41,275 bases of DNA, taken from a virus. The stretch is taken from positions 1 to 41,275 of the IMG/VR virus record IMGVR_UViG_3300046167_000406; one strand, written 5' to 3'. The position numbers and the translations under genes were made by a program. Positions 7,348 to 9,239 of the stretch are shown here, in pieces (the first letter of the stretch is position 1; each line of letters begins with the position of its first letter). The notes beneath the pieces were generated by a model. It was not told where the DNA came from and did not search any database. It worked only from the letters and a program-made list of their open reading frames with translations.

Positions 7348-7591
7348 ACAATATGATAACACTAACTCATTTGCAATGTTTAAGAATGAGAAAGGTGATA
7401 ATGAAGCAAGACCTGATTACACAGGTACAGTAACATTAGAGGGTGGTAAAGAAATGAGAATGGCTGCGTGGATTAGGGAATCTAAGTCAGGAGTAAAATT
7501 CTTAAGTGGTAGGTTATCTGAACCACAAGTTCAATCTTCTGAGGCTAACAGGAATAATGCTAGAGTAGAGGGGGATGACGTACCATTCTAA
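7340..7591 (+). CDS. Small SSB-like / DUF736-like protein, 83 aa
   Basis: The protein has a beta-rich core with a Pro-Asp-Tyr-x-Gly motif and ends in Asp-Asp-Val-Pro-Phe, like the acidic tail of single-stranded DNA-binding proteins that recruits replication partners. Its place directly after the annealing protein and exonuclease supports a recombination or replication role. The SSB-like assignment rests on the tail and context, not on a full OB-fold signature. The start overlaps the exonuclease end by 8 bases. Confidence 0.68.
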   Translation: MAEQYDNTNSFAMFKNEKGDNEARPDYTGTVTLEGGKEMRMAAWIRESKSGVKFLSGRLSEPQVQSSEANRNNARVEGDDVPF

Positions 7592-7992
7592 TACAAGAGG
7601 TCTTAAACCACTTTGATGGAGTTCGTGAAACGGGCAATGGACAGTATTCGTGTCGTTGCCCTGCACACGAAGATAAGAGTGCATCACTAGGAATAAAAGA
7701 GGGAGATGAAAATCGCATCCTACTGAATTGTTTTGCTGGTTGTGATGTTAAATCTATTTTAGAGTCGGTTGGTTTGGACTGGAAAGACATACTGCCTGAT
7801 AACAAACTATATCAAGCAGAGAAACATAGCTTTAATCCTTTTGCGGTATTAAAGATGATTAGAGATGAAGTATTAATTATTGGTCTAGCAAGTGCAGATA
7901 TTAGAAATAATAAACCACTTAACGATAAAGATCATGATAGATTATTAAAAGCAGTAAGCAATGTAAGAGATGCTTATGCTAAAACAAAATAG
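7591..7992 (+). CDS. Primase-type zinc-binding protein, 133 aa, no standard start
   Basis: The open frame encodes a CHC2-like zinc domain: Cys-x-Cys-Pro-Ala-His-Glu-Asp-Lys-Ser-Ala-Ser-Leu-Gly-Ile, later Asn-Cys-Phe-Ala-Gly-Cys. The family normally starts just before the Gln-Glu-Val-Leu segment seen here, but the codon there is ATA (7591), overlapping the previous stop as TAATA. A single A-for-G error (ATG to ATA) or a rare ATT/ATA start would explain this. No TOPRIM domain follows, so only the template-recognition part of a primase is present, encoded ahead of the helicase. The last base overlaps the tmRNA-like RNA. Confidence 0.7.
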   Translation: MQEVLNHFDGVRETGNGQYSCRCPAHEDKSASLGIKEGDENRILLNCFAGCDVKSILESVGLDWKDILPDNKLYQAEKHSFNPFAVLKMIRDEVLIIGLASADIRNNKPLNDKDHDRLLKAVSNVRDAYAKTK

Positions 7993-8069
7993 GGGTAGCT
8001 TTGGTTTCGACAGTGTGTAAAATTAATTTAGCATACTGGACGTGAGTTCGATTCTCACCTACTCCACCA
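7992..8069 (+). ncRNA. Minimal tmRNA-like RNA (tRNA-like domain only)
   Basis: The 78-nt RNA folds as a tmRNA tRNA-like domain. The acceptor GGGGUAG pairs with CUACUCC, including a G3-U70 wobble, followed by discriminator A and an encoded CCA. The 5' part keeps the tmRNA signature GGUUUCGAC in place of a D-arm. CAGUGUG pairs with CAUACUG (helix 2), capped by a 14-nt loop. GGAC then leads into a perfect T-arm, GUGAG-UUCGAUU-CUCAC. The whole mRNA-like region, resume codon, tag peptide and pseudoknots are absent. G3-U70 and A73 are the identity marks for alanyl-tRNA synthetase. It could be an SmpB/EF-Tu-binding decoy or regulator. It starts on the last base of the primase gene and lies 5 bases from tRNA-Tyr. 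Confidence 0.82.
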
Positions 8070-8074
8070 TTAAA

Positions 8075-8160
8075 GGATAGTCGGCAAAGTAGGAGAGTTG
8101 CGATGGACTGTAAATCCATTCCCTCTGGGTGAGTAGGTTCGATTCCTACACTATCCACCA
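8075..8160 (+). tRNA. tRNA-Tyr (anticodon GUA)
   Basis: The RNA has a 7-bp acceptor (GGATAGT/ACTATCC), an anticodon loop CTGTAAA with GUA on the stem ATGGA/TCCAT, a long class II variable arm, the T-arm GTAGG-TTCGATT-CCTAC, and an encoded CCA. Length 86 nt fits bacterial tRNA-Tyr. Position 8 reads C, not the near-universal U, which may be a base error. Confidence 0.95.
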
Positions 8161-8175
8161 TTATAGGAGAATAAA

Positions 8176-8340
8176 ATGACAGTATATAAAGTATCAGGAG
8201 GAGTTAAAGACTATCTAGTAACGCCTTGGGCAATGGGTGCGTTTAAAGCTAGATCTTATTTGAAAGCAAGAAGTATAGATGCAATAGTAACTAAGTATGT
8301 GCAAGTAGATGGTCAGTGGAAAAAGAGAGGTGTTAGGTGA
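8176..8340 (+). CDS. Small basic protein, 54 aa
   Basis: The ATG has ATAGGAGAATAAA upstream, and the stop overlaps the helicase start (GTGA). The product is basic (Lys/Arg-rich) with no hydrophobic segment. Tight coupling to the helicase gene suggests a replication-linked role, but no family is recognised. Confidence 0.68.
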   Translation: MTVYKVSGGVKDYLVTPWAMGAFKARSYLKARSIDAIVTKYVQVDGQWKKRGVR

Positions 8341-9239
8341 CAGCACAGACATTAGAGGACATTCTCATTACTGATAGAGAAGTTTCAGGTTATATGGAGA
8401 CTAGAGATTCAGGTGAGCATCTTAAAATTAAAAAACCTACCGAGTATATAGATCAGGTAGAGAAATACTTTTCTGATGACTTAACAGGAGGATTAGAGTT
8501 ACCATTTCCTAAAACTGCTGCTGACTATAAAGTTCGTATGGGGGAAATTTCTTTGTACACTGGATTTTCCGGGCATGGCAAATCGGCATTTTTAAACTTT
8601 GTTATGTTACATCTAATGAAACAAGAGAAGACTATGATTGCTTCTTTTGAGATGTTACCTAAGGCCACACTAGGTAGGATGTGTCAGCAAACAGGTGAGG
8701 CTTTACCTAACAGTGATTACATTAAAGACTTTTTAGGTAAGTTAGATAATAACTTATTCTTGTATGACCCACAAGGAGAAACTTCAGCTGAAAAAGTCCT
8801 TGAAGTAATTTATTACTGTGCTGAAAAGCTTGGTGTTAAACTGATGGTCATAGACTCGTTAATGAAGTGTGGTATTAATGAAGATGATTTAAATAAACAA
8901 AAGTCTTTTGCTAATAAGCTATCAGTTGCAGCTAGAGACTTAGACATACATATATTTCTAGTAGCACACAGTAGAAAGACCGCTAACGAGAATGACTGGG
9001 CAAATAAGTTTGATGTTGCAGGTTCTGCAAATTTAACTAACCTAGTTGACAATGTATTTTCTATTCATCGTAATAAAGCAAGAGAAGAAGAGGTGCTAAA
9101 TGGTAGTTTAGATACAGAGTTAATGAATCAACCACCATGTAGTGTGTACTTATTAAAACAAAGACATGGGAGAGGTATAGAGACTCGTTGGGGATTTGGT
9201 TTTAAGCCTGAGACGTTCTCTTATACAGAGACATGGTAA
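8337..9239 (+). CDS. DnaB/gp4-type replicative helicase, 300 aa
   Basis: This is a RecA-fold hexameric helicase. Walker A is Gly-Phe-Ser-Gly-His-Gly-Lys-Ser (residues 76-83) and Walker B is Leu-Met-Val-Ile-Asp-Ser (169-174). An Ala-His-Ser-Arg-Lys segment (DnaB motif H3-like) and a C-terminal Lys-Gln-Arg-His-Gly-Arg-Gly region with an arginine finger follow. It lacks a primase domain; the zinc-binding primase part is a separate gene at 7591, so the usual gp4 fusion is split. The start is GTG, overlapping the upstream stop. It should unwind phage DNA at the fork for host polymerase. Confidence 0.9.
   Translation: MTAQTLEDILITDREVSGYMETRDSGEHLKIKKPTEYIDQVEKYFSDDLTGGLELPFPKTAADYKVRMGEISLYTGFSGHGKSAFLNFVMLHLMKQEKTMIASFEMLPKATLGRMCQQTGEALPNSDYIKDFLGKLDNNLFLYDPQGETSAEKVLEVIYYCAEKLGVKLMVIDSLMKCGINEDDLNKQKSFANKLSVAARDLDIHIFLVAHSRKTANENDWANKFDVAGSANLTNLVDNVFSIHRNKAREEEVLNGSLDTELMNQPPCSVYLLKQRHGRGIETRWGFGFKPETFSYTETW

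Follow-up and report, generated by a model that had tools for sequence, protein, structure and literature searches.

The tRNA-like domain (TLD) is the part of tmRNA that binds alanyl-tRNA synthetase (AlaRS), EF-Tu and SmpB (PMC3929946). Bound to the TLD, the globular part of SmpB substitutes for the missing anticodon arm and enhances alanylation; the complex of Ala-tmRNA, SmpB and EF-Tu enters the vacant A site, and polyalanine has been made in vitro without mRNA by SmpB and a TLD fragment (PMC3929946). Phage tmRNAs of little more than this domain are already a known kind, for which a single phage has been named: in 2014 Hudson, Lau and Williams listed mycobacteriophage DS6A as 'TLD only' (PMC4131195). 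According to that paper, a TLD-only molecule inhibits tmRNA whether it can be charged or not, perhaps via titration of SmpB. A 2025 tmRNA database paper (PMC11915505) states that inhibition of the endogenous tmRNA by this form has been shown on expression in E. coli, and it also notes that tag-less tmRNAs persist in mitochondria with SmpB.

We analysed a window of 41,275 nucleotides, the whole stretch of viral DNA introduced above, and confirmed that it carries a TLD-only tmRNA with alanine identity at positions 7992 to 8069. The element has the acceptor, D-region, GGAC, T-arm and G3-U70 in common with bacterial one-piece tmRNA (RF00023), but it is without mRNA-like domain, tag reading frame and pseudoknots. 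Like the DS6A tmRNA (tmID 11587; PMC4131195, PMC11915505) it is a phage gene of little more than the TLD, and so belongs to the kind described there (PMC4131195), although phage and host are different and the likeness is one of description. The tag-coding part has also been lost from the tmRNAs of jakobid and oomycete mitochondria and of Mallomonadaceae plastids, the plastid forms being about 65 bp long (PMC11915505); these organellar RNAs serve their own compartment, whereas the phage gene meets a host with its own tmRNA. Two-piece or permuted and full phage tmRNAs (PMC9004378; RF04321) are likewise phage-encoded ssrA genes but keep an mRNA-like piece, of which the window has none. The Thermus thermophilus TLD construct in PDB 2CZJ (PMC3929946) follows the same design, with a short capped helix 2, and is SmpB-bound; it is artificial (the 5' 25 nt, UUCG and the 3' 34 nt), whereas the phage RNAs are natural, and by this analogy the RNA found here resembles a naturally occurring form of the crystallised construct. 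The newness that the earlier note on this DNA implied for such an RNA is not supported, given the listing of DS6A (PMC4131195) and the inhibition reported in PMC11915505. What appear to be unreported, in the open-licence PMC literature, are the breadth of the family, its covariation, the invariance of its alanine identity and the additional cultured carriers described below.

The element and its setting in the window

The features of the locus are as follows.

7585 to 7992, + strand: primase zinc-finger-like ORF directly upstream of the element (phrog_6088 DNA primase, E 5e-16)
7992 to 8069, + strand: TLD-only tmRNA gene, 78 nt, CCA encoded (RF00023 match, whole model)
7992 to 7998, + strand: 5' strand of the acceptor stem, pairing with 8059-8065; G3-U70 is G7994-U8063 (sequence, cmscan alignment, fold)
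7999 to 8011, + strand: D-region CUUUGGUUUCGAC, with 3' end UUCGAC (cmscan alignment)
8012 to 8037, + strand: helix 2 (8012-8018/8031-8037) and its 12-nt loop, 8019-8030 (fold; covariation, 85 representatives)
8038 to 8058, + strand: GGAC (8038-8041) and T-arm (8042-8058; stem 8042-8046/8054-8058, loop UUCGAUU) (cmscan alignment)
8059 to 8069, + strand: acceptor 3' strand CUACUCC, discriminator A73 (8066) and encoded CCA (8067-8069) (cmscan alignment)
8075 to 8160, + strand: tRNA-Tyr (GTA), starting 6 nt past the last base of the element (ARAGORN, Rfam)
8337 to 9239: helicase-like gene, downstream of the TLD-tRNA-Tyr cassette

The Rfam tmRNA model RF00023 matched positions 7992-8069 with 71.9 bits (cmscan, E 3.4e-26, cut-off 47). 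The alignment ran end to end, from model position 1 to 374, and passed over 302 model positions that lie between the helix 2 strands. The earlier note had read these 78 nt, at exactly these coordinates, as a tmRNA reduced to its tRNA-like domain with alanine identity and had proposed the Infernal comparison as a check; the match and the G3-U70 pair bear out that reading. All seven acceptor pairs form, G3-U70 included, and of the seven pairs in helix 2 two are G-U. In place of the mRNA-like domain and pseudoknots there is this 7-bp helix with a loop of 12 nt; the stem length given in the earlier note was correct, and its loop of 14 nt is to be counted as 12. In the minimum-energy fold three weak A-U pairs lie inside this loop. 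By the Rfam comparison the element has the acceptor, D-region and T-arm of a tRNA-like domain and the alanine identity pair, and lacks a tag reading frame and an mRNA-like domain; no second tmRNA piece, permuted or otherwise, was found elsewhere in the window. The permuted tmRNA model RF04321 had no match in the window, and the 5' half of the element precedes the 3' half. ARAGORN made no call for the element and reported only the adjoining tRNA-Tyr.

The cassette of TLD and tRNA-Tyr separates the primase zinc-finger gene from the helicase-like gene. The stop codon of the former (TAG, 7990-7992) contributes its G as the first base of the RNA; at the expected place this ORF lacks an ATG, GTG or TTG start codon, and an ATT at 7585 is possible. 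The window also encodes ERF, a YqaJ exonuclease, SSB, a cytosine methylase, ribonucleotide reductase, portal and scaffold proteins. By portal protein the nearest cultured phage was OM43 phage Venkman (44%); the family pattern found no element in Venkman or MW202481, and a DNA search retrieved no close relative of the locus among cultured phages. A promoter scan gave 9 sites against 16 expected.

Family members and selection on the fold

Family members came from three pattern scans, two over IMG/VR and one over GTDB genomes, whose matches were then filtered on acceptor pairing. The patterns fix UUCGAC, GGAC and GTTC, so these letters are not evidence and diverged members are missed; pairing of all seven acceptor positions is likewise a selection filter and not evidence by itself. 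Acceptor pairing was bimodal: at least 155 matches had 7/7 pairs, and nearly all others had 5/7 or fewer and resembled the 3' ends of ordinary tmRNAs. Distinct sequences among the matches with full pairing numbered at least 123. In IMG/VR there were, as a lower bound, at least 111 distinct viral TLD-only tmRNAs on at least 143 contigs, and 12 distinct members came from contigs in the bacterial genome set (GTDB). At less than 85% identity at least 93 members were left, and the family occurs on very different phage contigs. Of the 92 loci from bacterial genomes 12 were TLD-only, and most were set aside because they represent the 3' end of a full tmRNA, with TTCGAC occurring upstream by chance and 5/7 or fewer acceptor pairs. 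When the 78-mer served as a query, the only matches were to the T-arm and acceptor of ordinary tRNAs and of tmRNAs, either full or permuted. Nearly all family members are missed by ARAGORN; in four loci (L049, L095, L110 and L151) its calls of tmRNAs of about 320-640 nt join sequence to a TLD-only element and look false. The CCA is encoded in only 41 of the 123 distinct members listed, and the others would need CCA addition by the host.

The alanine identity pair is invariant in the family. A pattern scan of IMG/VR that required U70 gave at least 120 matches, and the same pattern with any other base at position 70 gave none in the whole viral collection, which puts the chance background close to zero and shows U70 to be invariant. 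Position 3 was G in all 123 distinct members listed, G never having been imposed against A, and the first scan, in which position 70 was free, returned G3-U70 in 21 of 21 distinct members. Acceptor pairs 4-7, unlike G3-U70, vary freely.

Helix 2 was part of no pattern or filter, and its covariation was assessed over 85 representatives. Since the D-region varies in length, MAFFT misaligned the 5' acceptor strand, and pair counts were therefore made in Python from anchored segments. The first six pairs of helix 2 were standard in 89.6% of cases, as compared with 35-48% when one strand was slid by 1-4 positions. Over eight pairs we counted 318 two-sided changed cells against at most 159 in 500 shuffles; sequence relatedness can inflate shuffle tests of this type, and the slid control retains that relatedness. 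The T-stem was 100% paired, one of its bases being fixed by the pattern. Compensation was also seen in close relatives: helix 2 reads AGUGUGU/GCAUACU in the window, AACAUGU/GCAUGUU in L002 and AGAGCGU/GCGCUCU in L080. A hairpin of at least three pairs inside the loop was found in 75 of 84 cases compared with about 63% in shuffles, a modest excess on which no conclusion is based. The fold and G3-U70 are under selection. Both signs that the earlier note had suggested looking for, compensatory changes in helix 2 and conservation of G3-U70, were thus found across the family, and its view that the element is selected and not a decayed copy was upheld by the covariation, the invariant U70 and the retention of the element at moved positions.

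Three independent contigs (L012, L018 and L027) carry an identical element at the same place between the same flanking genes. This rules out an assembly collapse, a doubt that the earlier note had raised along with absence from relatives, and relatives do carry the element. L070 and L080 retain the replication genes but have the element at another place, in L080 accompanied by the tRNA-Tyr seen in the window (7976-8172, 86.8% identity); the L002 group has the element close to the ribonucleotide reductase gene. A tRNA gene was present within 500 nt in 27 of the 155 copies listed, on the same strand in 26 of these. No gene family recurred in more than 10 of 92 loci, and clustering gave no functional partner. 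Such variable neighbours fit a trans-acting RNA rather than a cis-regulator. SmpB was matched on none of 50 carrier contigs, some of which may be fragments, and the same search found it in 10 of 14 control genomes, the four without it being archaea; the TLD RNA would therefore use the SmpB of the host.

Unannotated TLD-only elements above the Rfam cut-off were present in the cultured Streptomyces phages pSt2308 (61.0 bits), LuckySocke (57.1 bits) and BRock (64.5 bits) and in Stenotrophomonas virus Jojan60 (61.8 bits); GiJojo matched by sequence only. Related forms were observed as well. Streptomyces phage Riptide (PV654398, about 83318-83394; L247) has a diverged TLD-like RNA beside tRNA genes, in which G3-U70 and the CCGCACGCGG hairpin are kept and GGUUAGAU and GAAU replace GGUUUCGAC and GGAC; this phage additionally has an annotated full tmRNA. 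One contig (G020, that of L056) combines a TLD-only element at 46486-46567 with a full tmRNA at 77588-77979 (L248:189-580), which scored 94 bits and whose tag, as called by ARAGORN, is unlike the normal one. A longer class of 98-127 nt (L255, L258, L263, L264, L271, L274, L275, L276, L282 and L290), far shorter than full tmRNA, shows full acceptor pairing and an extra structured insert in helix 2; all six members scanned passed the Rfam tmRNA cut-off, and by eye no tag reading frame was common to the class. Self-cleaving pistol ribozymes were seen on phage or phage-like contigs with tmRNA forms (L198:1621-1716, L297:944-1000 and L271:10932-11017).

Possible roles of the RNA

On balance we think it probable that the alanylated TLD relies on SmpB and EF-Tu of the host and competes against the host's own tmRNA without providing a tag. 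The RNA would be made in one transcript with tRNA-Tyr and the early replication genes and then undergo processing as a tRNA does. AlaRS of the host would presumably charge it through G3-U70, and host SmpB and EF-Tu-GTP would bind it. It would then either move into ribosomes that have stalled at an mRNA's 3' end or compete with host tmRNA for SmpB. In the ribosome the nascent chain would pass to alanine, with no resume codon, tag or stop provided, and tagging and degradation of unfinished proteins by the host would be lowered during infection, to the presumed benefit of the phage. Interference with trans-translation, one of the roles put forward in the earlier note, is retained as the leading mechanism; by analogy we favour it because the DS6A TLD-only form is reported to inhibit the tmRNA of E. 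coli (PMC4131195, PMC11915505). The presence of a full tmRNA alongside the TLD-only element in G020 and alongside the diverged TLD-like RNA in Riptide sits oddly with a purely anti-tmRNA role.

The strict G3-U70 bears on how such interference might operate. An RNA that only sequestered SmpB would need neither charging nor ribosome entry, as the inhibition by chargeable and non-chargeable TLD-only molecules alike, perhaps by titration of SmpB, may suggest (PMC4131195). However, AlaRS identity would be dispensable in such a sponge; in the family U70 never varies and G occupies position 3 throughout although A would pair, while pairs 4-7 are free to change, and we regard the sponge as quite unlikely. 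Since inhibition was reported irrespective of chargeability, inhibition alone leaves the strict G3-U70 unexplained; the conservation of this pair suggests that the charged molecule matters and favours ribosome entry over a plain sponge. The invariant pair would also be accounted for if the alanylated TLD-SmpB complex entered the stalled ribosome, added one or more untemplated alanines and let the chain be released, so that the phage gained recycling without the host tag. The polyalanine made in vitro by SmpB and a TLD fragment without mRNA (PMC3929946) and the tag-less tmRNAs retained with SmpB in mitochondria (PMC11915505) are in line with this rescue by alanine tailing, but its basis is in vitro, there is no stop codon or known release step, and inhibition of tmRNA is what the TLD-only form is reported to cause in vivo; we consider it unlikely. 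If true, a phage RNA family of very wide distribution would be carrying out in living cells what TLD and SmpB do in vitro when they synthesise polyalanine.

Two further explanations lie outside ribosome rescue. Phage tRNAs counter tRNA cleavage, and the 27 of 155 listed copies close to a tRNA gene might point to a decoy for a tRNA-targeting defence nuclease, or to an alanine donor in another process; nevertheless, the RNA has no anticodon arm to cut and the window member retains the tmRNA-specific D-region and GGAC, which makes such uses very improbable. That the element is a relic scarcely merits belief. It is true that ssrA is a site of phage integration and that host tmRNA sequence is present at the ends of prophages (e.g. 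L246), but an attachment-site remnant would consist of the 3' part only, with an integrase gene, whereas here the 5' and 3' halves are both intact, no tyrosine integrase (PF00589) was found in the window and one was found in only 9 of 50 carrier contigs. A decayed phage tmRNA is contradicted by the strong covariation of helix 2 and by the retention of the element while it changed position among relatives.

Interference with host trans-translation by an alanylated TLD, if confirmed, would mean that small phage RNAs commonly control ribosome rescue. DS6A had been the lone TLD-only phage tmRNA on record, a curiosity, and there are now at least 111 distinct viral sequences. The cultured carriers of Streptomyces (LuckySocke, pSt2308 and BRock) and Stenotrophomonas (Jojan60) make the question testable, and the strict G3-U70 separates an SmpB sponge from charged ribosome entry, such that a single base-pair change would distinguish them.
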